In this document: positions 5,046-48,866 of the stretch, piece after piece | Layout of the letters: the number at the start of each line of letters is the position of its first letter | How positions within the stretch are numbered: position 1 is the first letter of the stretch | Assembly: GCA_002162685.1 (NCBI GenBank) | Contig: MAAQ01000009.1 | Span: forward strand, 1 to 64,000 | Direction: 5' to 3' | Source: Flavobacteriales bacterium 33_180_T64 | GTDB lineage: Bacteria > Bacteroidota > Bacteroidia > Flavobacteriales > Flavobacteriaceae | Length of the DNA: 64,000 nucleotides | Made by a program: the position numbers and the translations under genes | Notes under the pieces: generated by a model | Databases searched by the model: none | Seen by the model: the letters and a program-made list of their open reading frames with translations, nothing else | What the model was told of the DNA's origin: nothing

Positions 5046-6149
5046 ATGAAGCTAAACCATACTCTTTATATTTTCCTTTTGCTTACAATTGTTTCATGCA
5101 AGAACAATACGAAAAATAATGATGATGCTATTTCGGGTGCTACCAAATGGGTTGACTCTTTAATATATCCTGAAGAAACTCATTTTAAATCGATAAGGCA
5201 AGTTACTTTTGGAGGTGATAATGCTGAAGCCTATTGGAGTTTTGATGATAAGCAACTCATCTTTCAATCCAACAACAAAGCATGGGACGTTAATTGCGAT
5301 CAAATGTTTTTAATGAGAGCTAATGATACTTTTGACAAAACTATTCCTCCTATGATTAGTACCGGAAAAGGGCGTACTACTTGTGCCTATTTTCTACCTG
5401 ATAATAAACACATCATTTACGCATCAACCCATTTGGGTGATAAAAATTGTCCCGATACTCCTCTACGTAAAAACGGAAAATATATATGGCCAATTTATGA
5501 TAGTTATGACATATTTGTAGCCGATCTCGAAGGAAATATTACTGCACAATTAACCAACGAAATTGGTTACGATGCTGAACCAACAGTCTCTCCACAAGGC
5601 GACAAAATTGTATTTACATCTACTAGAAGTGGAGATATCGAATTATACACCATGAATTTGGATGGAAGTGACGTTAAACAAATCACCTTTGAACTAGGTT
5701 ATGATGGAGGCGCCTTTTTCTCTCCAGACGGGACGAAAATAATATTTCGCTCATCACGTCCTAAAACAGAAGCAGAAATTAAAGAGTATAAAGATTTGCT
5801 TGCTGAGGGTCTGGTACAACCAACTGAAATGGAACTTTATATCTGCAATTCAGATGGTAGTGATTTACGCCAACTCACTAATTTAGGAAATGCAAATTGG
5901 AGCCCGTTCTTTCATCCTAGTGGTGAAAAGGTATTGTTCTCGTCCAATTTTGAAGCTGAAAGAGGCTTTCCTTTTAATTTATATTTAATAGATTTAGATG
6001 GTAAAAATTTAGAACGCGTAACACATGGCGAGACATTTGATGCATTTCCAGTTTTTTCTAATGATGGAAAGAAACTGATTTTTTCTTCAAATAGAAATAA
6101 TGGTGGTGGTCACGATACGAATTTGTTTATAGCAGAATGGAAAGATTAA
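5046..6149 (+). CDS. TolB-like beta-propeller lipoprotein
   Basis: 367 residues. The signal peptide ends at TIVSC (Cys18), so the protein is lipid-anchored. At least four WD40-like PD40 repeats are visible, each with the pattern (S/T)P.G.KI.F.S.R.G...LY..N.DGS....T; clear copies lie near residues 180-220, 220-235, 260-300 and 330-360. This fold is shared by TolB and the propeller of dipeptidyl peptidase IV, but no peptidase domain follows. It probably binds a partner in the periplasm or at the cell surface. Its 3' end overlaps the 3' end of the convergent receptor gene by 4 bp. Confidence 0.85.
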   Translation: MKLNHTLYIFLLLTIVSCKNNTKNNDDAISGATKWVDSLIYPEETHFKSIRQVTFGGDNAEAYWSFDDKQLIFQSNNKAWDVNCDQMFLMRANDTFDKTIPPMISTGKGRTTCAYFLPDNKHIIYASTHLGDKNCPDTPLRKNGKYIWPIYDSYDIFVADLEGNITAQLTNEIGYDAEPTVSPQGDKIVFTSTRSGDIELYTMNLDGSDVKQITFELGYDGGAFFSPDGTKIIFRSSRPKTEAEIKEYKDLLAEGLVQPTEMELYICNSDGSDLRQLTNLGNANWSPFFHPSGEKVLFSSNFEAERGFPFNLYLIDLDGKNLERVTHGETFDAFPVFSNDGKKLIFSSNRNNGGGHDTNLFIAEWKD

Positions 6150-8629
6150 TTTAAATCTTTCAGTCTATCGCGTTCTTCTTGTTCACTAGAACGTGCATTT
6201 GTTTCTAACTTGGTATTTCCAAATTTATAACGGAAACCAAGTTTTATATAACGATTATCTGCGTTTCGATAACTGGTGCTGTACTGATTTAAATACTGCG
6301 AATACACTTCAGCATCTTGCATGTTAAACAAGTCGCTAATAGCTAAAGAAATAACGCCTTTCTTTTTTAGAATGGTTTTAGAAATTGCCAACTGTGAATC
6401 TAATCTGTCTTCCACAACTTTTAGTCCCTGTAAGTTTTTACCAACCCAAGTCAATGTTAAATTAAGTGACATGCTTTTGTCTTTCAAAAATGAAAAATCA
6501 TTTTGGAGAATTGAATAATTAGACCACTGATCTTGTTTTACAAAACCTTCTTCAAAGTTAGTTTCTTCTTCGATATTATAAAAAGAGGTGACAAAATACA
6601 CTGACCAGGATTCTACGACATCAAAATAAGTGGCAAAATCAAATCCAAACTCCACTGTTTTATCAAGATTTACCGGAACATATTCTATTATATTGGTGGC
6701 ATTATTTTGTCGTGACAAATTTGAAATATTACCGTCATAATTTTGATAATACGCTTCGATTGTGAAATTTTCAAATACCGTTGTTCCTAATACGAAATGA
6801 TTATTAAAAGTTGGCGAAAGGTTTGGGTTTCCAGTGACTATTGTGTTGTCATTCAAAAAAAACTGAAATGGATTTAAATGTGTATATGATGGCCGAGTTA
6901 ATGATCGTTTATAATTGATATAGACATTAAAATTATCAGAAACAGTATACAGAATACTCGCATTTGGGAACCACTCTAAATAATTTTGTTTGTTTATTTG
7001 ATCAGTACTTATTGATTTCCCTTCTGTATCCGTTTGTTCAACTCTAAGTCCAATACTCAAATTCCATTGTTCAGTATCAACACTATAATTAGAATATGCC
7101 GAAAACACATCTTCCTCATAATCAAACGCATCTGAATTCTGCAAATCAATTTGTTCGTTTCCAGAAGGTATATCAACATCAAACTGAGTAATATCGCTTT
7201 CGGTTCTAATGTTTGAATACTTTGCGCCAATCTCGAAATTTGAGTTGTCATTTATAGGTAATACATAATCTATTTTCGAAGTTAATATCTGAGTGTTTTG
7301 ATTCGCCTTGGTATTATATGCCGTTGCATCATAAAAAATATGGTTCTCGTCAAAGTAATTGCTAATTACTTCTTGAGATCTATTATAATCATAGGTTGTA
7401 AAATGCGAATTAAAAGAGAGCGCTCCTTTTTCCTTAAATTGATGCACATAGCCTAGATCTATGCCAATATTATGTTTTTTGTCTCTTGAGAGGTTATTGG
7501 CATTAAAACTTGAATCGAAAGTCATGCTTTCATCAGTAATAACCGTATTGTTGTTAATTCTATATTTAAAATTGGGTAAATACAATACAGTTGATGTCAG
7601 ACTCAAGGTGTTATTGTCATCTACGAAATAGTCAAAATTCAAATCTACATTGTGGGTGTCTGACCAGGTATTTCTATTGATATCAGACCTCCATATCTCA
7701 TCAACTTGATTGGTCAAATCTAAAAAATTAACGATATCATCATTCTCTCTATTTATTTTACTATTGGCATAATTATAATTGAGATTCAAACTGATTTTTT
7801 TATTCTTAAAAAAATGACTCATCCCTCCATTATAACGAGGAAATACACCCTGAGTATAATTTGTAAAAACGCTGCCTCTATATCCTGTAATTAGATTTTT
7901 ACTCATTACAATATTGATGACAGTAGCCGTATCTGCATCATATTTTGCCGAAGGGTTTGTTATCACTTCAATAGATTTGATACTATTAGCAGAAGAACTT
8001 TCAAGCAATTGGATAAGCTCTTCCGAGCCAAGCTGAACTTTTCTATTATTAATATAAACCGTTGGTATGTCACTTTTAACTGAGAGTCCACTATCTGAAA
8101 CCAATACACCTGGCGTGCTTCTTAATACTTGTAACATATCACCTTCTACTAATGCGGTGTTTTGAATATCAAAAACAAGTTTGTCGGCTTCTTTTCTAAT
8201 GGTTGGCCGCTTTGCTACAATACTTATTTCACCTAAGGTTTCAATATCTTCTTCTAGAATTGTATCTGCTAATGTTATACTTTCGTTTAGATCTATTGTT
8301 TTGTAAATAGTTTTAAATCCAATAAAACTATATTGAACAATGTAATTCCCTTTTTGCAAAGCACTAATTTTAAAAGTTCCGTTGTCTTCGGTACTTGTAC
8401 CTTTAACAATTGTAGAGTCTTGTTGTGTTAACACTAGAACGTTTACAAAAGAAATGGGCGTTTTTTCCTTATCAAGAACACGTCCTGATACTGATAAGTC
8501 TTGCCCAAAACTAAATATAGGCAATAGGATAAATAAGATGAATGGTTGAAGTTTCAAATTTAGTTTTAGTTTCGCAATGCAATATATAAATAGTTTTAGA
8601 CTTTTATTTGTGGAAAATCCGTAATGCAT
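6146..8629 (-). CDS. TonB-dependent-receptor-like outer membrane beta-barrel protein
   Basis: 827 residues. After a signal peptide (ending near SFGQ, about residue 43) comes a carboxypeptidase-regulatory-like beta-sandwich (about 45-130; SGRVLDKEKTPISFVNV...GTFKIS), then a plug-like segment (about 140-240; LRSTPGVLVSDSGLSV, NPSAKYDADTATVINI), then a long barrel rich in alternating aromatic strands. This is the architecture of the Bacteroidota OMP_b-brl_3 group, which resembles TonB-dependent receptors but often has no known ligand. The stretch before the signal peptide is unusually long (about 25 residues), so the true start may be an internal non-ATG codon. No SusD partner is adjacent. Confidence 0.85.
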   Translation of the reverse strand: MHYGFSTNKSLKLFIYCIAKLKLNLKLQPFILFILLPIFSFGQDLSVSGRVLDKEKTPISFVNVLVLTQQDSTIVKGTSTEDNGTFKISALQKGNYIVQYSFIGFKTIYKTIDLNESITLADTILEEDIETLGEISIVAKRPTIRKEADKLVFDIQNTALVEGDMLQVLRSTPGVLVSDSGLSVKSDIPTVYINNRKVQLGSEELIQLLESSSANSIKSIEVITNPSAKYDADTATVINIVMSKNLITGYRGSVFTNYTQGVFPRYNGGMSHFFKNKKISLNLNYNYANSKINRENDDIVNFLDLTNQVDEIWRSDINRNTWSDTHNVDLNFDYFVDDNNTLSLTSTVLYLPNFKYRINNNTVITDESMTFDSSFNANNLSRDKKHNIGIDLGYVHQFKEKGALSFNSHFTTYDYNRSQEVISNYFDENHIFYDATAYNTKANQNTQILTSKIDYVLPINDNSNFEIGAKYSNIRTESDITQFDVDIPSGNEQIDLQNSDAFDYEEDVFSAYSNYSVDTEQWNLSIGLRVEQTDTEGKSISTDQINKQNYLEWFPNASILYTVSDNFNVYINYKRSLTRPSYTHLNPFQFFLNDNTIVTGNPNLSPTFNNHFVLGTTVFENFTIEAYYQNYDGNISNLSRQNNATNIIEYVPVNLDKTVEFGFDFATYFDVVESWSVYFVTSFYNIEEETNFEEGFVKQDQWSNYSILQNDFSFLKDKSMSLNLTLTWVGKNLQGLKVVEDRLDSQLAISKTILKKKGVISLAISDLFNMQDAEVYSQYLNQYSTSYRNADNRYIKLGFRYKFGNTKLETNARSSEQEERDRLKDLN

Positions 8630-8677
8630 CGATTATTTTGTTCTTAATAAAAATCAACTAATGCTTAATAAATCAAC

Positions 8678-8685
8678 TATATTTG
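8678..8685 (+). promoter_or_regulatory. -7 promoter element of lepA
   Basis: TATATTTG followed by C, an exact TAnnTTTG match, 30 nt upstream of the lepA ATG at 8716. Confidence 0.65.
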
Positions 8686-8715
8686 CAAAATCCTTAGTAG
8701 GAAAGAATTGTCTTT

Positions 8716-10512
8716 ATGAAGCACATTAGAAATTTTTGCATTATTGCACATATAGATCATGGTAAAAGTACGCTTGCCGATCGATTATTGGAATTTACAG
8801 GAGCCGTTACCGATCGAGAAAAACAAGATCAGTTACTGGATAGTATGGACTTGGAGCGTGAACGCGGGATAACCATTAAATCTCACGCCATTCAAATGGA
8901 GTACACCTATAAAGGTGAGGAATATGTATTGAACCTAATTGATACACCTGGTCATGTCGATTTTTCTTATGAGGTATCGCGTTCAATTGCAGCTTGTGAA
9001 GGCGCCTTATTAATCGTCGACGCGGCACAAAGTATACAAGCACAAACGATTTCGAATTTATATTTAGCCCTTGAAAACGATTTAGAGATCATTCCTATAC
9101 TTAATAAAGTCGATTTGCCAAGTGCGAATCCAGAAGAAGTTACAGATGATATCGTAGATTTATTAGGGTGTGATCCTGAGGAAGTAATTCATGCCAGTGG
9201 GAAAACAGGATTTGGAGTGGATAATATATTGGCTGCTGTCATTGAACGTATTGCTGCACCAAAAGGCGATCCAGACGCACCCCTTCAAGCACTTATTTTC
9301 GATTCGGTCTACAATACGTTTAGAGGAATAGAAACCTATTTCAGGGTGTTTAATGGAGAAATTAAAAAAGGGCAGAAAATAAAATTTGTTGCTACTGGTA
9401 AAGAATATAATGCAGACGAAGTTGGGACTTTAAAACTAACACAGGTTGCTAAACAAAGTGTGAAAACTGGAGATGTAGGGTATTTAATTACTGGAATTAA
9501 AACGGCTAAAGAAGTAAAAGTAGGTGATACAATTACAGATTTTGCGAATCCAACTACCAATATTGTTGAAGGGTTCGAGGATGTAAAACCAATGGTTTTT
9601 GCAGGTATTTATCCTGTTGATACAGAGGATTACGAAGAACTTCGAAACTCTATGGAAAAACTTCAGTTAAATGATGCGTCCTTAGTCTTTGCTCCAGAAA
9701 GTTCAGCTGCCTTAGGATTTGGGTTTCGTTGTGGTTTTTTAGGAATGTTGCACATGGAAATTATTCAGGAGCGTTTGGAACGTGAATTTGATATGACCGT
9801 TATCACTACAGTTCCTAATGTGTCTTACCATGCGTTTACAAATAAAAACCCTGACGAAGCGTTCGTTGTAAATAATCCTTCCGATTTACCGGATCCTTCA
9901 ACCGTAAACAGGGTTGAAGAACCTTATATAAAAGCTACCATTATTACTAAATCTGATTTTGTAGGTAATGTCATGTCGCTTTGTATTGAAAAACGAGGTA
10001 TTGTGCTAAATCAAACTTATTTAACGACTGAGCGTGTTGAATTAACCTTTGAAATGCCATTAGCAGAAATCGTATTCGATTTTTATGATCGATTAAAAAC
10101 AGTTTCAAAAGGATACGCTTCATTCGATTACTCGCCAATAGGGTTAAAAACTTCAAAATTAGTGCGTTTAGATATCTTATTAAATGCCCAGCCTGTGGAT
10201 GCGCTTTCTGCGCTTATTCATGCAGATAATGCGCAACATATTGGGAAAAAGATGTGTGAAAAACTAAAAGAGCTCATACCGCGTCAGCAATTTGATATTC
10301 CTATTCAGGCAGCAATTGGAGCTAAAATTATTTCTCGTGAAACCATTAAAGCGCTTCGAAAAGATGTAACTGCAAAATGCTATGGTGGAGATATTTCTAG
10401 AAAACGTAAACTTCTTGAAAAACAGAAAAAAGGTAAAAAACGTATGCGCCAAGTGGGTAATGTAGAGATCCCTCAACAGGCCTTTATGGCAGTTTTGAAA
10501 TTAAACGACTAG
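8716..10512 (+). CDS. lepA: Elongation factor 4 (LepA)
   Basis: 598 residues, full length for the family. This translational GTPase acts on the ribosome in translation fidelity and 30S biogenesis. GTPase motifs are intact: AHIDHGKST (G1, about 11-19), RERGITIK (G2), DTPGH (G3, about 78-82), NKVD (G4). Domains II-IV follow, then the LepA-specific C-terminal domain ending [20 protein letters not shown], a hallmark that separates it from EF-G and EF-Tu. A promoter element lies 30 nt upstream and a bidirectional terminator follows, so it is probably a monocistronic unit. Confidence 0.98.
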
Positions 10513-10563
10513 ATTTTGCTTGGTAAATATCTTGTTTTTCAGCAACTTATATTGATCTATATC

Positions 10564-10598
10564 AAAAAAGTGCGTCAATTGGAATTGGCGCTTTTTTT
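10564..10598. terminator. Bidirectional terminator between lepA and the antiporter gene
   Basis: AAAAAAGTGCGTCAATT pairs, with one bulge and G-U pairs, with AATTGGCGCTTTTTT around a GG turn. The A-run and T-run on the two sides let it serve both convergent genes. The antiporter stop codon begins at its right end. Confidence 0.8.
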
Positions 10599-12432
10599 AT
10601 GCCTCTTTTGCATCAAATCGCTTTCCTAAATACACCAAACAACAACCTTTACCATTGGTATCTAGAGCATCATTATATGAAGAGATGATATGTAATTCTC
10701 CTTCCTCGTCTTTAATAAAAAGAGGAATAACATCCGTATCACTATTTGTTTTCTCAATCAAGTCTTGATAATGTGCTAAGTCACGTAGTGCTATTTCGTG
10801 AATTGAGGGGTATTTTTTAGTTAGTTCCAACAGTGAATTATAGTCGTTCGTATGTGAAAACAGGCCCTCGTTGGGGTTATTTGTTGGATCATTCATTTCC
10901 TCCTTTGTCACTAATCTAAATGATCCATTTTCTCCAAATTGTTTGCTGAATTTATTGATTGCGTATTTATTAATATCTGAATTTCCCGTTAATGCCATAA
11001 CATAGCCAATATCATTAAGTTCAATATTGTCTAGTAATTTATCAGAATAAATATTAGCGTTTAAGGCTTCAAGCCCAGATTCTTTAGCTCTTAAAATATT
11101 TGTTTCGTTACTATCAATGAGTACAACATGTCTGCCATTAGATTCTAAATAAGTTCCTAATAATCTTGAGATTTCAGAAGCACCAACTATCAAAATCCCT
11201 TCAGATTTTAATAAGAATACTCCAATTATTTTAGCGAATAATCTCGCGGTTGTTGCATTAAGTAAAACGGTTCCTAATACGATCATAAACACCAAAGGTG
11301 TGATATACTCAGCTCCAGGAACGCCATTTTTAGCGAGTTTTAATCCGAATAACGAAGCAATTCCTGCTGCGACAATACCACGAGGACCCACCCAACTAAT
11401 AAACAGTTTTTCATTCAATTTTAATCTTGATCCGCTAGTGCTTAGAAATACACCAAGGGGTCTTATTACAAAAACTACAGTAACAAACAAAATAGCAGTT
11501 TTCCAGTTATAAATAAGCAATAAGTCTTCTATGTTTATGTTTGCTGCTAAGAGTATAAAGAGAATTGAAATAAGTAAGACGCTTAATGATTCTTTAAAAT
11601 AAAGTAATTCTTTTAAATACGGAGAATTAGAATTTCCTAATACCATTCCCATCACAACTACAGCAAGTAATCCAGATTCATGCGCAAAATTATCTGAAAG
11701 CACGAACACGCCCAAAACAGCAGCGAGTGCAAACACATTTAGTAGATAATGAGGAATCCATTTTTTGTTGATTGAAAAGTTCAAAGCATGTGCAAATGTA
11801 AATCCAAATGTAGAGCCAAAAAGAACAATCTTTCCAAATTCAATAAAGGCCGTTTTAGTGAATTCTCCGCCACCACCAACGCTAATAAATTCAAACACCA
11901 AAACCGCTACTAAGGCACCTATTGGGTCTATCAAAATACCTTCCCATTTTAATACAGCTGAAACATCTTTTTTTAATGGAATATTTCTCAGAATGGGCGT
12001 AATAACAGTAGGGCCAGTAACTATAATTAATCCTGAAAACAAAAATGAAATTTCCCAGCTTAGATCAAAAATATAATGAGTTGACAATGCTGCACCAAAA
12101 AATGTAACCAGTGATCCTAAAGTAATGAGTTTTGTTATAACCGGACCTACATTCTTTATTTCACTCATTTTTAGAGTCAACCCACCTTCAAAAAGAATAA
12201 TACTTATGGCTAAAGACACAAAATAGAATAGGCTTTCACCAGGAAATAGACCTTCATTTCCATTCCAAATAGGTTCTATCCATTTAGTTCCATCCTCAGA
12301 CAGAAACTCAGCGGCAATTGGACCTACTAGCAAGCCAATTAGTATTAAAGGTAAAATTGCTGGGATTTTAAATTTCCATGCTACCCATTGGGCAAGTATT
12401 CCTAAAATAATTATTCCTGCTAATTCTAACAT
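10597..12432 (-). CDS. CPA-type cation:proton antiporter with TrkA-N domain
   Basis: 611 residues. The first 400 or so residues carry 12-13 predicted membrane helices in the Na+/H+ or K+/H+ exchanger fold (IPAILPLILIGLLVGP; ILFEGGLTLKMSEI; LFSGLIIVTGPTVITPIL; SWVGPRGIVAAGIASL). A Rossmann-type TrkA-N domain follows (about 415-525; GILIVGASEISRLLGTYLE; HVVLIDSNE), then a small C-terminal domain. The family exchanges cytoplasmic cations for protons; the TrkA-N domain suggests nucleotide control. It lies 28 bp downstream of the SulP gene on the same strand and is probably co-transcribed with it. Ion specificity cannot be read from sequence. Confidence 0.88.
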   Translation of the reverse strand: MLELAGIIILGILAQWVAWKFKIPAILPLILIGLLVGPIAAEFLSEDGTKWIEPIWNGNEGLFPGESLFYFVSLAISIILFEGGLTLKMSEIKNVGPVITKLITLGSLVTFFGAALSTHYIFDLSWEISFLFSGLIIVTGPTVITPILRNIPLKKDVSAVLKWEGILIDPIGALVAVLVFEFISVGGGGEFTKTAFIEFGKIVLFGSTFGFTFAHALNFSINKKWIPHYLLNVFALAAVLGVFVLSDNFAHESGLLAVVVMGMVLGNSNSPYLKELLYFKESLSVLLISILFILLAANINIEDLLLIYNWKTAILFVTVVFVIRPLGVFLSTSGSRLKLNEKLFISWVGPRGIVAAGIASLFGLKLAKNGVPGAEYITPLVFMIVLGTVLLNATTARLFAKIIGVFLLKSEGILIVGASEISRLLGTYLESNGRHVVLIDSNETNILRAKESGLEALNANIYSDKLLDNIELNDIGYVMALTGNSDINKYAINKFSKQFGENGSFRLVTKEEMNDPTNNPNEGLFSHTNDYNSLLELTKKYPSIHEIALRDLAHYQDLIEKTNSDTDVIPLFIKDEEGELHIISSYNDALDTNGKGCCLVYLGKRFDAKEA

Positions 12433-12460
12433 ATTCTTTTATTTAAAAAACACTCAATAT

Positions 12461-14683
12461 TTACAAGGACATGTGTTTTAATAGATTAGATGAGAATTTA
12501 AGCATATTTTGAACCTCAGCAGTTCGTGCAATATGTAGATATTTGAAAATCATCAATGCCTCTCCGTTACTTTCTATATGGTGTATTTCATTTTCCTCTA
12601 AAAATCGAATGAGATCTTCATTGAAAAATGCTCTTATCCCGTCTTCATTCTCTCCACTCAATTGAAACTTATTTGAAAAATGTGAGTATTTCACAAAATC
12701 TATATCCTTATTACCTCCAGAAAACACTTTCACACGTTCAAATATTTTATCAAATAGTCCTTCTTTATCTATAATAAATTTTGGTATTGGTTTAGGCAAT
12801 CTAACAACCTGTACGGTAGTTTGATACACTTCAAGTGCGAGCATCGCTCCTTCATCAAAAACAATGTCTGAAATCTCCCAATGTGCATTGTTTTCAGCAT
12901 CCAATCCTTGTAAAGAATTACTTTTCATTTCAATTGGTCTTGAATCAAAAAATGTGAAATTCCTTAAATAAGACGTATTCCAGTCCACTTCGCGCTCAAA
13001 GGACCAGTTATTAGCAATTGCCAATTTTTGTAAGCGAATTTGACGTTGTGTAATTCTCTTTTTAACACGTCCAGTAATAATCTTTAAGGCACGGTTGTGA
13101 CTTGTTGATGCAACATGGTTGTCTAATCCAATAAGCTTAACATTACCACCTTCATTATCGTGTATCCGTTTAAATTCAATCAAATTTTCCATAATTGATA
13201 AATCAACTAGTCGTGTTTGAGACATATCAATACGAACCTCAGAACCTACTGGTATATCTTCTAATAATTTATCTAGTCTTAAGGCGTAAAGGAAATTCGC
13301 AATTCCCTTTAACTTTACATCATAAGTACCATTTTCTAATTGATATACTTTTGAACCAGATTTATATATCTTTTTAAAGAATGTCAAAAAGCCCACTTTC
13401 GCCAATAGTATATGTAGAATTAGAGTCACAAGGATTCCTCCAATAATTCCATATAGTAAATCAGTGAATAAGGTAATAATAAGTGTTGCCGATAAAAATA
13501 ACAATTGCTCAACGCCTTGATCATAAGCGCGTTTAAATACTTTAGGCGATGCCAATTTAAATCCTGTATGCACTAATATTGCCGCAAGAGCAGCCAAGGG
13601 AACACTTCTTAAGATTGGGGCTAAAATTAAAACGAATAAAATTAGAAAAATACCATGATACAAGTTCGACCACTTTGTCTTGGCATTACTATTTACATTT
13701 ACTGTACTCCTAACAATTACCGTAATTATTGGAAGACCTCCTAAAGCTCCTGAAACCATGGTACTCAACCCAACACCAACTAAATCTTTATTTAAATTTG
13801 TGGTTCTTTTGTAAGGATCCAATTTATCAACAGCACGTGCACTAGCTAATGTTTCAACTGAAGCTATTGTAGTAATTGATAGCACAGTAAGCCAAAATGC
13901 TAAGGTGCCTATCATTCCAAAATCTGGATGCATGATACTGTCTAAAGGGTTGTCAGGAATGTCTATTAGTAATTTAGGGCCAACATCATAGGCTGTCCCA
14001 AGGAATGAAATGCTATGCTCATTAAAAAAATCGAGTCCAAAAACTACTGGTAATGCTAGCAATAACACCCACATTGGAGCAGGTATTATTCGAATAAATT
14101 TCTGTTTAATCTTTTTATAAAACACAAGTACAAAAATACCAATCAAAGCCACTAAGAATACAAATGGGTTGGCCTCAGGTAGCTTATAAAAAATATCGAT
14201 TAAGGTGCCAATAGTTGTGTCTGCGTTCGAGGTCGTTCCTAAAGCAAAATGTGCTTGTTTTGCGAAAATTATAACGCCAATCGCCGCCAATATCCCATGA
14301 AGTACAGATGATGGTAATAACTTTGCGAAACGTCCCATTTTCAGAAAACCCATTATGGTTTGTATTCCTCCAGATATTACTATTGCGGCAAGTACATAAT
14401 TGATGTTGCCATCAAGCGCAACGAGACCTCCTAATATTACTGCGATTAATCCAGCAGCTGGTCCATTTATTGCTAAATGTCCGCCTCTAAAAAAAGTAGT
14501 AACTACGCCACCAATAATTGCTGATAGTATTCCAGCCATTGGAGACACTTCTGAGGCAACAGCAATCCCTAATGCAAGAGGTAAAGCTACCAGTGATACG
14601 CTTAAAGCTGCAGAAAAATCATTGCGAAAGTTCTCTTTTAATCCTTTAAAACCGCCGGATGGTATAGTGTTTTTAGTGCTCAT
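12461..14683 (-). CDS. SulP-family anion transporter with extended C-terminus
   Basis: 740 residues. About 12-14 membrane helices (about 25-430) carry SulP landmarks: ALPLALGIAVASEVSPMAGI near the N-terminus, GGLVAL, and SVETLASARAVDKLDPYKR followed by NKDLVGVGLSTMVSGALGGLPI. A STAS domain follows (about 445-545; EVRIDMSQTRLVDLSIMENL). SulP proteins carry sulfate, bicarbonate or other anions. Typical bacterial members end after STAS at about 500-570 residues; here some 185 more residues follow, soluble and without transmembrane segments, which I do not recognise with certainty. It heads an operon with the cation antiporter. Confidence 0.9.
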   Translation of the reverse strand: MSTKNTIPSGGFKGLKENFRNDFSAALSVSLVALPLALGIAVASEVSPMAGILSAIIGGVVTTFFRGGHLAINGPAAGLIAVILGGLVALDGNINYVLAAIVISGGIQTIMGFLKMGRFAKLLPSSVLHGILAAIGVIIFAKQAHFALGTTSNADTTIGTLIDIFYKLPEANPFVFLVALIGIFVLVFYKKIKQKFIRIIPAPMWVLLLALPVVFGLDFFNEHSISFLGTAYDVGPKLLIDIPDNPLDSIMHPDFGMIGTLAFWLTVLSITTIASVETLASARAVDKLDPYKRTTNLNKDLVGVGLSTMVSGALGGLPIITVIVRSTVNVNSNAKTKWSNLYHGIFLILFVLILAPILRSVPLAALAAILVHTGFKLASPKVFKRAYDQGVEQLLFLSATLIITLFTDLLYGIIGGILVTLILHILLAKVGFLTFFKKIYKSGSKVYQLENGTYDVKLKGIANFLYALRLDKLLEDIPVGSEVRIDMSQTRLVDLSIMENLIEFKRIHDNEGGNVKLIGLDNHVASTSHNRALKIITGRVKKRITQRQIRLQKLAIANNWSFEREVDWNTSYLRNFTFFDSRPIEMKSNSLQGLDAENNAHWEISDIVFDEGAMLALEVYQTTVQVVRLPKPIPKFIIDKEGLFDKIFERVKVFSGGNKDIDFVKYSHFSNKFQLSGENEDGIRAFFNEDLIRFLEENEIHHIESNGEALMIFKYLHIARTAEVQNMLKFSSNLLKHMSL

Positions 14684-14899
14684 AAAAATTAATTAAACGT
14701 CAATATACGTTTTTCAAAAAAAAACAAATCTATTTAGCCTCTAAAATCTTGATGAAAATTACACCTAAGAATCCTTATCCACAGAAAACTAATGAGTTAA
14801 TTGGAATCATCCATTCCAAAAAATTAGAGCGATGTAATGTATCCTAATAAATTCTTAATTTCTACAAGTAATAACTGTCAATTTCTTATTTTAGATGCT

Positions 14900-15760
14900 A
14901 TGAAGTTATACCCAATAAATGCAGGAAATTTTAAACTTGACGGAGGTGCCATGTTTGGTGTTGTACCGAAATCATTATGGCAAAAAACCAATCCGTCCGA
15001 CGCGAATAATATGATTGATATTGCGGCACGTTGTTTATTGATTGAAGATGGCAACCGATTGATTTTAATTGATACTGGGATGGGAAATAAGCAAAGCGAT
15101 AAATTTTTTGGATATTATTTTCTCTGGGGGAATGATACCATAGATAATTCCTTAAAAGCACATGGATTTCATCGCGATGATATTACCGATGTATTTATGA
15201 CGCATCTACATTTTGACCATTGTGGTGGAAGTATACAGTGGAATAAAGACCAAACCGGTTATGAGCCAGCTTTTAAAAATGCGTCTTTCTGGAGTAATCA
15301 AAATCACTGGAAATGGGCAACAGAGCCAAATAACAGAGAAAAAGCTTCGTTTTTGAAGGAAAACATACAGCCTATGGAAGCATCTGGACAACTAAAATTC
15401 ACCGCATTACCTCATCATGATTTACTTAAAAATTCTGAGTTGGGTTTTGATATTTTTTTTGCAAATGGTCATACTGATAAACAGATGCTACCAATGATTA
15501 ATTATAAGGGTAAAACCATTTGCTTTATGGCAGATTTATTGCCTACTGCTGGGCATATACCAATTCCTTTTGTAATGGGTTATGATACCAGGCCTTTATT
15601 ATCTTTAACAGAAAAAGAGAAATTCTTAAATCTCGCTGCAGATCATGAGTATTATTTGTACTTAGAGCATGATGCGCATAATGAAATAATAACGGTTCAA
15701 CATACCGAAAAAGGCGTACGCTTGAAAGACACATTTAGATGTGACCAAATTTTTAATTAG
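14900..15760 (+). CDS. Metallo-beta-lactamase-fold hydrolase
   Basis: About 286 residues from the ATG at 14900. An upstream in-frame ATG at 14837 would add 21 residues without resemblance to the family. Di-zinc motif THLHFDHCGG gives His102, His104, Asp106 and His107; further ligands fit the FANGHTDKQM and EHDAHNEI blocks. The general layout (LIDTGMGNK early, then HxHxDH, then GHT) resembles lactonase-like hydrolases such as AHL lactonases, but the substrate is unknown. There is no signal peptide, so it is cytoplasmic. The subtilase gene starts 13 bp downstream, possibly in the same transcript. Confidence 0.87.
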   Translation: MKLYPINAGNFKLDGGAMFGVVPKSLWQKTNPSDANNMIDIAARCLLIEDGNRLILIDTGMGNKQSDKFFGYYFLWGNDTIDNSLKAHGFHRDDITDVFMTHLHFDHCGGSIQWNKDQTGYEPAFKNASFWSNQNHWKWATEPNNREKASFLKENIQPMEASGQLKFTALPHHDLLKNSELGFDIFFANGHTDKQMLPMINYKGKTICFMADLLPTAGHIPIPFVMGYDTRPLLSLTEKEKFLNLAADHEYYLYLEHDAHNEIITVQHTEKGVRLKDTFRCDQIFN

Positions 15761-20573: not shown

Positions 20574-20951
20574 ATGAGCGAATCGTATCCTAAAAAAGAA
20601 AAACTTAAAAGTCAAAAATTAATTGAAAGCTTATTTCAAAAAGGGCAATCAGTATCTGTATATCCATTAAGGTTAGTCTATATAAAAGACCCTGTCACTA
20701 GTGATTCTTCGATAAAAGTTGGAGTTTCAGTAAGTAAAAGAAATTTCAAAAAAGCCGTCGATAGAAATCGAATTAAACGCGTGTTGAGAGAAGCGTATCG
20801 ACTAAACAAAGCATCATATTTTAACAACAATACAACACCATTAGCGTTTATGATTTTGTACATTGGTAAAGATGGAATAGAATTTGATTCCATTGATACT
20901 ACAATGAAACAGTTATTAAAAAAATTTACAGATAAAATATCTGAAGACTAA
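20574..20951 (+). CDS. rnpA: Ribonuclease P protein component
   Basis: 125 residues, normal length. It partners the RNase P RNA to mature tRNA 5' ends. The family signature is intact: KVGVSVSKRNFKKAVDRNR followed by IKRVLREAYRLN, holding the basic RNR motif that contacts RNA, after an N-terminal PKKEKLKSQKLIESLF stretch. Bacterial rnpA is classically beside rpmH and dnaA; neither is here. An S41 protease gene begins 11 bp downstream, so the two are probably co-transcribed from the promoter element at 20549. Confidence 0.96.
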   Translation: MSESYPKKEKLKSQKLIESLFQKGQSVSVYPLRLVYIKDPVTSDSSIKVGVSVSKRNFKKAVDRNRIKRVLREAYRLNKASYFNNNTTPLAFMILYIGKDGIEFDSIDTTMKQLLKKFTDKISED

Positions 20952-44400: not shown

Positions 44401-44878
44401 TGATCCTAAGCAAGGAGAAAACGGCGCACAACAAGGAGAAGGCGAAGGGAATAGTGAAGAGATGAACGGAGAGTTATATCGTATTTACCAGCAACAGCAA
44501 CAACTCCGTCAGGCGCTTCAAGATAAATTGGGCAAAGAAGGAAGTAATGGTCAGGCTGGAGATTTATTAAAGAAAATGGAGGAAGTTGAACTCGATTTAT
44601 TGAATAAAGGGTTTACAAATCAGACCTTACAAAAAATGATGGAATTGCAGCATCAATTATTGAAGATGGAAAACGCTACGTTCATGCAAGGAGAGGATAA
44701 AAAGCGAAAATCAGAAACGAATACAAAACGCTTTAATAATGGTTCTAATAACCAGATTCCGACGGCGAGAGAATATTTTAATACGACCGAAATTTTAAAT
44801 AGACAAGCACTACCTTTGCAGCAAGTTTATAAAAAGAAAGTACAAGAGTATTTTAAAAAGAAGGATGATCAGCTTTAA
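41480..44878 (+). CDS. DUF4175-type giant membrane protein
   Basis: 1132 residues. Three membrane helices near the N-terminus (about 25-45, 52-75, 155-172), a beta-rich extracytoplasmic part (about 185-470; Ig-like strands with YPSYTKKTDETLKSTGNATIPEG), a highly charged coiled-coil (about 480-765, runs of K, E, L and Q), a helical domain with LRQILDNLVLFSFDQEGLM, then a G/K/E-rich linker (about 985-1040) and a conserved end AREYFNTTEILNRQALPLQQVY. Bacteroidota homologues are annotated DUF4175; function is unknown, likely in the envelope. The stop overlaps the ybeY start by 14 bp. Confidence 0.85.
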   Translation: MGSEFKNIQAKLERFVKRYYTNELLKGAILFFAIGLLYFLFTLFVEYVLWLSPNARTILFWIFVLVELSLFTKFIAIPLAKLFKLQKGINHEEASKIIGQHFSEVNDKLLNVLQLQQTHSESELLVASIDQKSAELSPIPFKYAINFGTNTKYLKYAAIPIIILLLSLITGKMNWFSDSYERVVNYKTAFEPPAPFQFFVINESLDAIENKDFKLQVKTAGDVIPENAQIHYNGESYFLQQSAPGQFEYVFSQPKLEMNFNFTANDVTSKNYTLEVIKVPTLVSFEMILDYPSYTKKTDETLKSTGNATIPEGTIVTWKVNTRATTHVSLNEKDTLGFSKMEDGVFEVSKRLSRDFNYDISTSNDNLKDYESLAFSLNTIRDDYPELNLRVEKDSIDNQSLYFLGQVSDDYGLSKLQLVYYPANEEGSKLYEQIPVSTSNFDEFVAAFPNQLTLTEGINYELYFQVFDNDVNHNYKSTKSPVFTYRKLTKEEEEKKLLEEQNETIQDLNNSFDKLKAQDKELEKLAKMQKEKDALNFNDKKKLEDFIKRQRQQEEMMQNFNKKLKDNLEEFQNENKEEDAFKEELKERLNDNEEQLKKDEKLLEELEKLQEKIQKEELSEKLEELAKQNKNKQRSLEQLLELTKRYYVAKKAEKLQRELEALAEEQEALSEEENENNTKAKQEELNKKFEDFQKELEELQKENKELKKPIDVPQDKEEEEEIKKEQQEATEDLEKKEENEEQGNKQESNQNQKSAKQKQKKAAKKMKEMSAKMTQSMMSGGGDQIAEDAAMLRQILDNLVLFSFDQEGLMKQFRSIGVNHNEYGKYLRKQSSLREHFEHIDDSLFSLSLRQPTISEQVNTKITDVFYNLDKSLGQLSENQLYQGISTQQYTITATNDLASFLSDVLDNMESQMNPSPGQGSGGDMQLPDIIKSQEELNKEMEEGMKKSQKGKPKSGKDGKEGEEGEGEKKGQSGDPKQGENGAQQGEGEGNSEEMNGELYRIYQQQQQLRQALQDKLGKEGSNGQAGDLLKKMEEVELDLLNKGFTNQTLQKMMELQHQLLKMENATFMQGEDKKRKSETNTKRFNNGSNNQIPTAREYFNTTEILNRQALPLQQVYKKKVQEYFKKKDDQL

Positions 44879-45275
44879 CTACGAAACAGATTTTATACTT
44901 GAGAATAAAGAACAGATAACTCAATGGATTAGTTCAGTTATATCTGAAGAGGCATTCAACGAAGGTGAAATCAATTACATTTTTTGCGACGACAATTATT
45001 TGCTCGGTATAAATCTAGAATTTCTGGACCATGACACGCTCACCGATATCATAAGTTTTGATTATACAATGGGTAAAGAGATTAACGGAGACATTTATAT
45101 TTCTGTGGAAAGAGTTCAAGAGAATGCCGAAGAATTTAAGACCGTATTTTCAAATGAATTACATCGCGTAATGGTCCATGGTGTTTTGCATTATTGTGGC
45201 TACAAGGATAAATCTGAGACCGAGGAAAAGCTCATGAGAGAGAAGGAAAATTACTATATAAATCGCCTTTCATAA
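44865..45275 (+). CDS. ybeY: Endoribonuclease YbeY (rRNA maturation)
   Basis: 136 residues. YbeY is a zinc endoribonuclease for 16S 3' maturation and ribosome quality control. The conserved core is present: NLEFLDHDTLTDIISFDY (about 50-67) and the motif HGVLHYCGYKDK (105-116). Canonical H-G-x-L-H-L-x-G-Y-D-H has three histidine ligands; here His105 and His109 remain but the third position (115) is Asp. I recall GYKDK as usual in Bacteroidota, so it is probably functional. The start overlaps the DUF4175 gene, implying coupled translation. Confidence 0.92.
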   Translation: MISFNYETDFILENKEQITQWISSVISEEAFNEGEINYIFCDDNYLLGINLEFLDHDTLTDIISFDYTMGKEINGDIYISVERVQENAEEFKTVFSNELHRVMVHGVLHYCGYKDKSETEEKLMREKENYYINRLS

Positions 45276-45292
45276 TATTCAGGAAATCAACG

Positions 45293-45300
45293 TATATTTG
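45293..45300 (+). promoter_or_regulatory. -7 promoter element of mnmG
   Basis: TATATTTG followed by C, an exact TAnnTTTG match. It is 57 nt upstream of the mnmG ATG, with a parS site lying between the two in the leader. Confidence 0.65.
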
Positions 45301-45327: not shown

Positions 45328-45343
45328 TGTTTCACGTGGAACA
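45328..45343. promoter_or_regulatory. parS site 1 (ParB-binding centromere)
   Basis: TGTTTCACGTGGAACA; its reverse complement, TGTTCCACGTGAAACA, equals the B. subtilis parS consensus exactly. It is 15 bp upstream of mnmG. An identical 16-mer follows the gene at 47239. ParB loads at such sites to organise and segregate the origin region. parA and parB are not in the window. Confidence 0.9.
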
Positions 45344-45357
45344 ATAGTCTAATAAAA

Positions 45358-47229
45358 ATGTTTAACGAAGTATACGATGTAATAGTAGTTGGAGCAGGAC
45401 ACGCTGGAAGCGAGGCCGCAGCTGCTGCCGCAAACATGGGTAGCAAAACTCTGCTTATTACAATGAGTTTGCAAAATATTGCACAAATGTCGTGTAACCC
45501 AGCTATGGGTGGAATTGCGAAGGGTCAAATTGTTAGAGAAATTGATGCACTTGGAGGCTATAGCGGTATTGTTAGTGATACATCGGCTATTCAATTTAAA
45601 ATGTTGAACAAATCTAAGGGACCTGCTATGTGGAGCCCTAGAGTTCAAAGTGACAGAATGCGTTTCGCTGAAGATTGGAGATTGCTACTTGAACAGACTG
45701 AAAATCTTGATTTTTATCAGGAGATGGTATCAGGATTAATAGTCGAGAACCATAAAGTTGTTGGTGTGAAAACGTCTTTAGGAATTGAAGTAAAAGCAAA
45801 GACTGTTATCCTTACAAACGGAACCTTCTTAAATGGTTTGATTCATATTGGGGACAAGAACTTTGGCGGCGGAAGAGCAGGTGAAGGTGCGGCAACAGGT
45901 ATAACAGAACAATTAGTTAGTCTTGGGTTTGAATCTGGAAGAATGAAAACTGGAACTCCACCAAGAGTTGATGGACGTTCTTTGGATTACTCTAAAATGA
46001 TTGTCCAGCCTGGTGATGCAGTACCAGAGAAGTTTTCTTATTCTGATATTACCCAGCCACTAAAAAAGCAACGTGATTGTCATATGACTTACACGAGCCC
46101 TGAAGTTCATAATCTATTACGCGAGGGTTTTGATAGGTCACCAATGTTTAATGGAAGAATACAGAGTACAGGACCAAGGTATTGTCCGTCTATAGAAGAT
46201 AAAATCAATCGATTTGCCGATAAGGATCGTCATCAACTTTTCGTAGAACCTGAAGGTTGGAATACTGTTGAAGTCTATGTCAATGGGTTTTCAACTTCAT
46301 TACCGGAGGATGTCCAATTTAAAGCACTGCGATCTGTTGTGGGATTTGAAGGAGTGAAATTTTTCAGACCAGGATATGCTATAGAATATGACTATTTCCC
46401 ACCAACGCAATTGAAACACACATTAGAGACTAAGCTCGTTGAAGGATTGTATTTTGCTGGACAGATTAATGGCACTACAGGATACGAGGAGGCAGCTTCT
46501 CAAGGATTGATGGCCGGAATTAATGCGGCATTAAAAATTCAAGAGAAGGATGAATTTATACTTAAAAGGAGTGAAGCATATATTGGTGTTTTGGTTGATG
46601 ATTTAATCACAAAAGGAACAGAAGAGCCGTATCGAATGTTTACATCTAGAGCTGAATACAGAACACTGTTACGACAAGATAACGCCGACTTCAGGTTGAC
46701 GCCAAAAGGTTTTGATTTGGGTCTTGCTAGTGAAAAGCGATTGCGTCGCATGGAAGACAAACAAAAACAATCAGACGGTTTCGTTCAGTTTTTTAGGAAA
46801 ACAAGTGTTACTCCAGAGGTAGCGAATCCTGTGTTACAAGCAAAAGATTCTGCGCCTGTAAGGCAATCGGATAAAATGTTTAAGTTGTTTTCTAGACCGA
46901 ATATTACAATTGATGATATGCGTAGTTTTGAAGCAGTCGAAAAGTATGTCCAAGAGCATAGTTTGGATAGGGAAGTGATTGAGCAATCTGAAATACAGAT
47001 AAAATATGCTGGTTATATCGAGAAGGAAAAGAACAATGCGGATAAACTCAATAGATTGGAGGACGTAAAAATCCCTAAAGAGTTTGATTATTCAAAACTA
47101 AAATCGATGAGTTATGAAGCTATTGAAAAGCTAAGCAAAATACGCCCTGTTACGATCTCTCAAGCATCACGAGTTTCAGGCGTTTCTCCTAGTGATATTT
47201 CAGTGCTTTTGGTTTTTTTAGGAAGATAA
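45358..47229 (+). CDS. mnmG: tRNA U34 carboxymethylaminomethyl synthase, FAD subunit
   Basis: 623 residues, full length. With MnmE it modifies the wobble uridine (cmnm5U34) of several tRNAs. The FAD-binding start VIVVGAGHAGSEAAAAAANMG (about 8-28) is intact, as are SCNPAMGGIAKGQIVREIDALGG, RMKTGTPPRVDGRSLDYS and the C-terminal helical MnmE-binding domain ending SQASRVSGVSPSDISVLLVFL. In many bacteria mnmG (gidA) is an origin-proximal gene; here it is flanked on both sides by identical parS sites, which supports an origin-proximal position. Confidence 0.97.
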   Translation: MFNEVYDVIVVGAGHAGSEAAAAAANMGSKTLLITMSLQNIAQMSCNPAMGGIAKGQIVREIDALGGYSGIVSDTSAIQFKMLNKSKGPAMWSPRVQSDRMRFAEDWRLLLEQTENLDFYQEMVSGLIVENHKVVGVKTSLGIEVKAKTVILTNGTFLNGLIHIGDKNFGGGRAGEGAATGITEQLVSLGFESGRMKTGTPPRVDGRSLDYSKMIVQPGDAVPEKFSYSDITQPLKKQRDCHMTYTSPEVHNLLREGFDRSPMFNGRIQSTGPRYCPSIEDKINRFADKDRHQLFVEPEGWNTVEVYVNGFSTSLPEDVQFKALRSVVGFEGVKFFRPGYAIEYDYFPPTQLKHTLETKLVEGLYFAGQINGTTGYEEAASQGLMAGINAALKIQEKDEFILKRSEAYIGVLVDDLITKGTEEPYRMFTSRAEYRTLLRQDNADFRLTPKGFDLGLASEKRLRRMEDKQKQSDGFVQFFRKTSVTPEVANPVLQAKDSAPVRQSDKMFKLFSRPNITIDDMRSFEAVEKYVQEHSLDREVIEQSEIQIKYAGYIEKEKNNADKLNRLEDVKIPKEFDYSKLKSMSYEAIEKLSKIRPVTISQASRVSGVSPSDISVLLVFLGR

Positions 47230-47238
47230 ATATCGCAA

Positions 47239-47254
47239 TGTTTCACGTGGAACA
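47239..47254. promoter_or_regulatory. parS site 2 (ParB-binding centromere)
   Basis: TGTTTCACGTGGAACA, identical to site 1 and in the same orientation, 10 bp after the mnmG stop and 33 bp before the methyltransferase gene. The pair is 1911 bp apart. Confidence 0.9.
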
Positions 47255-47286: not shown

Positions 47287-48138
47287 ATGAAGGAAAAGAC
47301 AATTTATTTAGACTTAAAAGATTATTCTGTTTCAGGAGAAGAGTTTCAATTACTTTACAATAAGGAGCTGGATATGTTGGAGACTCATCCACGACCTTCG
47401 CTGGAAAAACTACCTGATTATTACAAAAGTGAAAACTATATTTCGCATACTAATTCCAAACGTAATGTATTTGAAAAAGTATATCATTTGGTAAAGTCCT
47501 ATGCGCTTAATCGGAAGCTGAAATTAATAAACTCACTAGTAAACTCACAAGGAAATCTTCTGGATGTAGGTTGTGGGACTGGCGATTTTTTAGAGATTGC
47601 GAAAGATAATGGTTGGCAGGTTTCCGGGATAGAGCCCAATGAAGATGCAAGAAATAGTGCCAATCAAAAAACTGAGCAATCTGTATTTAAGCCTGAAGAG
47701 CTTCATAGATTGGAGCCGAATAGTTTTGATGTAATTAGCTTGTGGCATGTGTTAGAACATTTGCCAAAATTGGAAGAGCATATTTCAGTATTTAAAAAAT
47801 TACTAAAACCCGATGGGAGGTTAATTATTGCAGTACCGAATTTTAAAAGTTATGATGCAAATTGGTACCAACATTTTTGGGCTGCTTATGATGTGCCAAG
47901 ACACTTATGGCATTTTTCAAAAACTTCAATTTCAAAACTCATTTTGAAAAATGAAATGCGTGTTGAAAAACACCTTCCAATGAAATTCGATTCCTATTAT
48001 GTGAGTTTACTTTCCGAAAAGTATAAAACCGGTCGCATGAAATTCTTTAGTGGATTTTGGATTGGTTGGAGATCAAACAGAAAGGCAAAATACACTGGCG
48101 AGTACTCTTCATTAATTTATGTGATAAAAAACGACTAA
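47287..48138 (+). CDS. Class I SAM-dependent methyltransferase
   Basis: 283 residues. The Rossmann-type core lies at about 95-215: GNLLDVGCGTGDFLEIAKDNG (SAM loop), VSGIEPNEDARN (acidic residue for ribose), FDVISLWHVLEHLPKLEEHI, LKPDGRLIIAVPNF. The N-terminal part (about 1-90) contains HPRPSLEKLPDYYKSENYISH. This pattern is common in Bacteroidota methyltransferases of unknown substrate; small-molecule, glycan or lipid targets are possible. It lies just after parS site 2 and may be in the mnmG transcript. Confidence 0.87.
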   Translation: MKEKTIYLDLKDYSVSGEEFQLLYNKELDMLETHPRPSLEKLPDYYKSENYISHTNSKRNVFEKVYHLVKSYALNRKLKLINSLVNSQGNLLDVGCGTGDFLEIAKDNGWQVSGIEPNEDARNSANQKTEQSVFKPEELHRLEPNSFDVISLWHVLEHLPKLEEHISVFKKLLKPDGRLIIAVPNFKSYDANWYQHFWAAYDVPRHLWHFSKTSISKLILKNEMRVEKHLPMKFDSYYVSLLSEKYKTGRMKFFSGFWIGWRSNRKAKYTGEYSSLIYVIKND

Positions 48139-48323
48139 AACTCAATTTTAAAGGCTCAGGTTATTGTTGTGCTCTCTAAACGAATAATTGCATGCGATAA
48201 TTGGGAAACATCCTTAAAACGCTTTAAAACGCGGTATTTGTTATTGAAACTGTTTATAATTAAATTAAATACGATTAATTATTACTATGATAAATAATTT
48301 CTATGAAAAGTCTGCAACTTTCA

Positions 48324-48331
48324 TACATTTG
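48324..48331 (+). promoter_or_regulatory. -7 promoter element of the OmpH-like gene
   Basis: TACATTTG followed by C, an exact TAnnTTTG match, 19 nt before the ATG at 48351. It argues against the in-frame ATG at 48303, which lies upstream of it. The rest of the gap 48139-48323 shows nothing else. Confidence 0.7.
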
Positions 48332-48350
48332 CAAAAATAAATTATACAAA

Positions 48351-48866
48351 ATGAAAAGAGGTTTAATACTGTTTGCTGTTTTAGCAATTTTGGTTTCTTG
48401 TCAAGAACAAATAAAGACAGGTTACGTTGATAATGGTAAAATGATAAATGATTACCAAAAAAAGAAAGATATTGAAATTAAGTTTCAAACTAAAATCGAT
48501 GCATTTAATAAAAAAGCAGATAGTGTTGGAAGAGCTTTTCAGGTAGAAGCACAAGAATTTCAATTGAAGGCTTCTAAACTATCGCAAAAAAATGCCCAAG
48601 AACAATATCAAATTTTGGGTCAGAAACAACAAATGCTCCAGCAAAACTTACAATTTGAAGAGCAACAAATTCAGAAAGAAAGTCAGACACAAATAGATTC
48701 ATTAATAAAGGACGTTAGAGGCTTTGTTAAGAATTATGGTGAGAGGAATGGATATACATATATTCTTGGAAGCAATGATGCTGGAAGTGTAATGTATGGC
48801 GCAAAGGAAAATGATTTAACTCAAGAATTACTCGAAGCATTAAACGCAGAGTATACGAAAGAATAG
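48351..48866 (+). CDS. OmpH/Skp-like lipoprotein
   Basis: 171 residues from the ATG at 48351, which gives a clean lipoprotein signal (LILFAVLAILVSC, Cys18); the ATG at 48303 precedes the promoter. The body is the OmpH pattern: GYVDNGKMINDYQKKKDIE, a long Q/K-rich coiled-coil (about 45-125), and GYTYILGSNDAGSVMYGAKENDLT at the end. Skp-type chaperones hold unfolded outer-membrane proteins; this lipid-anchored form is common in Bacteroidota and its role is inferred. A terminator shared with the convergent kinase gene follows. Confidence 0.88.
   Translation: MKRGLILFAVLAILVSCQEQIKTGYVDNGKMINDYQKKKDIEIKFQTKIDAFNKKADSVGRAFQVEAQEFQLKASKLSQKNAQEQYQILGQKQQMLQQNLQFEEQQIQKESQTQIDSLIKDVRGFVKNYGERNGYTYILGSNDAGSVMYGAKENDLTQELLEALNAEYTKE

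Follow-up and report, generated by a model that had tools for sequence, protein, structure and literature searches.

Two parS-like sites flanking mnmG are very probably the chromosomal centromere of a flavobacterium

Two identical 16-mers flank mnmG (gidA), the gene for a tRNA uridine-modification enzyme, in Flavobacteriales bacterium 33_180_T64, and the question raised by this locus is which they serve, the chromosome or the gene between them. In the 64,000-nucleotide stretch of DNA analyzed here (the window), exact copies of TGTTTCACGTGGAACA are found at 45328-45343 and 47239-47254 on the forward strand, in one orientation and on either side of mnmG (45358-47229, forward strand; TIGR00136, 846 bits against a cut-off of 524.85), in agreement with the coordinates and shared orientation given by the initial annotation. 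The upstream site ends 15 bp before the ATG (45358), and the downstream site starts 10 bp after the stop codon (47229). Both sites match TGTTNCACGTGNAACA without a mismatch and are therefore 16-bp palindromes of the kind expected of chromosomal parS. The reverse complement, TGTTCCACGTGAAACA, equals TGTTNCACGTGAAACA, presumably the degenerate parS consensus of B. subtilis. It is also one mismatch from TGTTTCACGTGAAACA, the consensus used in PMC10197239, and the parS identity proposed earlier for the 16-mers holds by sequence. Sequence, conservation, rarity, position and ParB residues together make it highly probable that this pair forms the chromosomal centromere of the flavobacterium and represents the parS sites of a ParABS system.

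At up to three mismatches, the window contains no third place for TGTTTCACGTGGAACA (four rows were returned, two per palindromic site), and 100 shuffles of the window gave a mean of 0.49 rows, none of them reaching four. The initial annotation had called for a scan of the whole genome; in the assembly (G000; 3.75 Mb, 23 contigs), the exact 16-mer is not evenly spread but occurs three times, each copy adjoining an mnmG, a rarity and clustering typical of chromosomal parS. At up to two mismatches, seven distinct places are found.

The third exact copy lies on contig C23 beside a second mnmG, which carries TGTTCCACGTGGAACA on its upstream side; the two MnmG proteins share 89% amino-acid identity. 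Two mnmG matches were found in this assembly only, among the genomes of the family, order and phylum searches. From 20.6 kb onward, the whole remainder of the window contig (C8, 100.9 kb) runs collinear with C23; 19 of the 20 pieces aligned show 66-79% identity at the DNA level. Four pieces from window positions 5046-15760 are 72-82% identical to C23:405-422 kb. The roughly 100 kb that surround the putative origin are present in two diverged versions, C8 and C23:405-527 kb. C8 makes up 2.7% of the assembly, for which a contamination of 2.84% is listed; C8 and C23 probably come from two related strains sharing one bin, the window contig from the second strain, and this would account for two diverged copies that both keep paired sites. 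By tetranucleotide composition, C18 is slightly nearer to C23, and C10 and C16 are nearer to C8, differences too small to assign these contigs to one strain or the other.

The initial annotation had also suggested comparing the mnmG flanks in related Flavobacteriaceae. When a site was defined as a match to TGTTNCACGTGNAACA with at most one mismatch, no more than 300 bp from either end of mnmG, 28 of 30 family loci, the window included, had a site, and 21 had one on both sides. Among named GTDB loci (the best 80 of 567 confirmed relatives), all 80 have an upstream site and 68 a downstream site as well. The proportion was 22 of 26 in other families of the order (both sides in 13), 6 of 8 in other orders of the class (both sides in 1) and 10 of 15 in other classes (the best-matching 15 of 46 genomes, in a phylum search of 61 genomes), where every positive locus has its site downstream of mnmG only; same-family loci recovered in the order and phylum searches were positive in 3 of 3 and 3 of 3 cases. 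Unseeded counts of 10-mers gave the same picture: in the upstream 130 bp of the named loci (best 80 of 567), the seven commonest 10-mers all derive from the palindrome, the promoter-like TATATTTGCA ranks eighth, and downstream of mnmG the seven commonest are again palindrome pieces.

That such sites are an artefact of chance or base composition is exceedingly improbable. In every tier, 60 control palindromes of matching composition were without a hit at the mnmG flanks, and the 1.66 Mb of named loci (best 80 of 567) contain 133 exact sites, whereas none of 20 control palindromes occurs there; together with the window shuffles, these controls refute a chance or compositional origin of the sites flanking mnmG.

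A second alternative, that the palindromes fold into RNA hairpins once transcribed with mnmG and serve in translation control or 3' end formation, is very unlikely. The forms TGTTCCACGTGGAACA, TGTTTCACGTGGAACA and TGTTTCACGTGAAACA can fold at -6.3, -3.4 and -3.9 kcal/mol, respectively, and the foldable orientation of asymmetric forms is the commoner one upstream (24 vs 12 in all tiers; 13 to 1 in the named loci, best 80 of 567), although these orientation counts are uncorrected for relatedness. The non-folding TGTTCCACGTGAAACA (0 kcal/mol) is nevertheless common in all tiers taken together: upstream it accounts for 12 cases vs 24 of the foldable orientation, and downstream for 19 vs 24. Either orientation suits DNA binding.

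Thirteen loci across the tiers lack a site by the above scoring (one mismatch, 300 bp). Three of them (G016, G042 and G061) have just two-mismatch variants beside mnmG, G036 and G060 have a single two-mismatch site each, and G079 and G086 have their sole site 502 and 354 bp downstream, respectively; in G023, G046, G058, G071, G090 and G093, no site within two mismatches was found in the locus. G041 and G054, scored as matches, have an altered core base (CATGTG). Loci cut by contig ends include L050, L131, L142, L163 and L177, and G005 and G059 gave no mnmG match at the search threshold. The variant AGTTYCACGTGRAACT was seen in 3 of 17 genomes searched (G016, G042 and G061; L043, L145 and L170), always beside mnmG, and the outermost parS base seems free to change. 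Co-variation of this base with ParB residue 170, which is S in G042 and G061 with their AGTT...AACT sites, was considered and rejected because G016 has a variant site with G170 and G086 has S170 without the variant. The number of sites also varies: L132 (G032) has six sites within two mismatches upstream of mnmG, L160 (G113) of the same genus has three within one mismatch, and three sites occur in some Aquimarina loci.

Across whole genomes, few sites lie elsewhere. In 32 family genomes (G001-G030, G085 and G113, with G000 outside this count), 64 sites match TGTTYCACGTGRAACA with at most one mismatch, and 55 of these are no farther than 500 bp from mnmG; places with more mismatches, one each in G014, G025 and G113, were excluded, and G005 and G016 have no site within one mismatch genome-wide. 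The nine remaining sites comprise three in G023, two in G003 within 3 kb of mnmG, one in G015 on a small contig, one in G002 and two of an mltD type (G001 and G007), which were identified by sequence and distance alone. A backwards control pattern gave 5 forward matches against 47 for the parS pattern in 25 genomes, and 15 against 32 with a looser pattern in 13 genomes.

The surroundings of mnmG are conserved as well. The gene ybeY (44865-45275, forward strand; TIGR00043) lies directly upstream of mnmG in all 80 named loci (best 80 of 567), and downstream follow a methyltransferase-domain gene (47287-48138, forward strand; PF13489), found within 900 bp of mnmG in 71 of the same best 80 of 567, and an OmpH/Skp-like gene (48303-48866, forward strand; PF03938). 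Between ybeY and the upstream parS lies TATATTTG (45293-45300, forward strand), a candidate -7-like element of the mnmG promoter that we take to be of the Bacteroidota type TAnnTTTG. The site pair is therefore placed as had been proposed, one copy between a promoter-like element and the start of mnmG and the other just past its stop, and, if TATATTTG is the promoter, the upstream parS is probably within the 5' untranslated region of mnmG. TAnnTTTG and parS both occur within 150 bp upstream of mnmG in 66 of the 80 named loci (best 80 of 567; the other 14 were unscorable), and in all 66 scorable loci the last TAnnTTTG precedes the parS closest to the ATG.

This arrangement invites the explanation that the sites regulate mnmG, with ParB in the 5' untranslated region blocking or tuning transcription and tying tRNA modification to segregation. 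The constant order of promoter-like element and upstream site in the named loci fits such a role, as does the repression of PA0011 and PA0013 by P. aeruginosa ParB bound to the intergenic parS3 and parS4, which is described in PMC7022226 and resembles the present case in that parS lies just upstream of a gene. We nonetheless regard this explanation as unlikely. The spacing between the -7-like element and parS ranges from 8 to 106 bp across the scored named loci, and the positive loci of other classes noted above (10 of the best 15 of 46 genomes) have sites solely downstream of mnmG. Moreover, G023, the sole genome found with mnmG apart from its usual downstream neighbors, offers one natural separation of a kind that sets the present case apart from parS3 and parS4: mnmG is at 1277 kb, 280 kb from the homologues of those neighbors, with no site within two mismatches in its 1.5-kb flanks, and all three exact sites in G023 are at 997-999 kb, around methyltransferase and OmpH homologues (~49% identity); ybeY did not turn up in the stretches sampled. 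That the sites are with the neighbors and mnmG is without them favors a centromere over a regulator of mnmG, albeit in one case, and makes G023 a natural experiment that parts the centromere from mnmG. The earlier proposal that ParB loading and mnmG transcription share the same DNA therefore stands with respect to the position of the upstream site, whereas G023 speaks against a functional coupling. It is probably the chromosome that the sites serve; mnmG is most likely their neighbor and not their client.

On contig C18, parB (above the TIGR00180 cut-off) adjoins a ParA-like gene, whose product is below the cut-offs of all 12 models listed; C18 may come from the other strain of the bin than the window contig. 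In sequence, the C18 ParB matches ParB and Noc chains of solved structure, and it has the equivalents of the parS-reading residues R173 and G201 (Caulobacter numbering), such that a ParA-like protein and a ParB with these residues are both encoded. R is present at position 173 in 43 of 43 ParB homologues and G at position 201 in 42 of 43, in line with the absolute conservation of both residues in ParB stated in PMC7383237; position 172 is K here and S in Caulobacter. The Noc binding site (NBS) system shares with the present one a ParB-like protein and a 16-bp palindrome, but none of the ParB homologues examined has the Noc-type Q173 or R201, and ParB scores 235.7 with the Noc model TIGR04285, under its cut-off of 315, so that an assignment to Noc/NBS is not supported.

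The sites are separated from parAB. In nine single-contig Flavobacteriales genomes (G014, G021, G023, G025, G033, G044, G049, G085 and G113), parB is 0.75-1.47 Mb from parS, or 25-42% of the chromosome, when single contigs are treated as circles and some lengths are rounded; in a tenth, G042, the variant sites and parB are 0.17 Mb (9%) apart. Outside the order, the distance is ~8% in G061, ~11% in G086, ~16% in G062 and ~44% in G089, and no ParB match was found in G055. Thus, parAB is non-adjacent to parS in all 14 genomes measured, at a varying distance, and the two show no linkage there.

Whether the locus is near the replication origin, as had been suggested, was judged by GC skew, using 20 samples of 20 kb per single-contig genome. 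The skew origin falls at 800-980 kb in G014 and at 2440-2600 kb in G113, with mnmG inside the interval (932 and 2567 kb, respectively), and at 1200-1390 kb in G021, with mnmG ~35 kb outside (1165 kb); in G023, the sampled skew was too weak to place an origin. On a fine scale, the skew minimum of G014 is at ~890 kb, 40 kb from mnmG, and the skew of G021 stays level between 1155 kb and its minimum at 1235 kb, which is 70 kb from mnmG. The cumulative skew of the window has a shallow minimum at ~15-25 kb, within which lies rnpA (20574-20951, forward strand; PF00825), a classical origin-region gene, ~25 kb from the parS pair. On the basis of skew alone, the parS pair and mnmG are probably origin-proximal. 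A search with the DnaA-box query TTATCCACA at up to one mismatch gave no convincing cluster near the skew minima in C8, the end of C23 or stretches of 200 kb from G014 and from G021. Neither dnaA (contig C10) nor parB (C18) is on the window contig, and in 12 gut bacteria, according to PMC10197239, the origin located from skew and parS is not always at dnaA.

Compared with the chromosomal parS of ParABS systems, reportedly treated by Livny et al. in 2007, the present sites are alike in being 16-bp palindromes with the core GTTNCACGTGNAAC, in few copies, probably origin-proximal and accompanied by a ParB with parS-reading residues; they differ in that they flank one gene, mnmG, and parB is not adjacent. 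In Bacillus and Pseudomonas, the origin cluster reads gidA-gidB-parA-parB. As in that cluster, mnmG and rnpA are here near the origin and parS, but dnaA and parAB are on other contigs and parS is with mnmG instead of parAB. The position of rnpA in the shallow skew minimum, with dnaA and parAB elsewhere, perhaps reflects a partly scattered ancestral origin cluster.

By analogy with established ParB biology, ParB dimers would bind each parS through their helix-turn-helix and close into CTP-dependent clamps that slide into mnmG and the neighboring genes; after replication, the ParB-loaded origin regions would separate, aided by ParA. The placement of the pair, in the probable 5' untranslated region of mnmG and directly after the stop codon, would reflect an old centromere position of Bacteroidota at this origin-proximal locus, retained although parAB and dnaA sit elsewhere. 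A further combination, in which the centromere stays at ancestral mnmG despite the scattering of parAB, dnaA and a large part of the origin cluster, and in which the paired sites additionally let ParB loading sense or tune mnmG expression, is quite doubtful; if true, it would link translation capacity to chromosome segregation through mnmG.

By sequence, the sites themselves are well-conserved parS of a known kind, and we did not find their recurrent position at mnmG and separation from parAB described: the titles and abstract beginnings of open-licence papers, among the matches listed, contained nothing on parS at mnmG in Bacteroidota and few papers on chromosome segregation in this phylum. 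If the pattern holds, the mnmG flanks could serve as a sequence-based marker of centromere and origin in Bacteroidota, where dnaA can mislead, and a small parS set apart from parAB is useful for asking why parS clusters and whether linkage to parAB matters.

A minor observation concerns mltD, in which the peptide LPRET is often encoded as CTT CCA CGT GAA ACA, giving the parS-like TCTTCCACGTGAAACA. This sequence was seen in 13 of 57 scorable loci (82 sources), including L005 at 1501-1516 (C23:479590), compared with ~0.4% expected from the codon usage of seven window genes, the related genomes not being independent. Some genera may have in mltD a third parS, located inside a gene.
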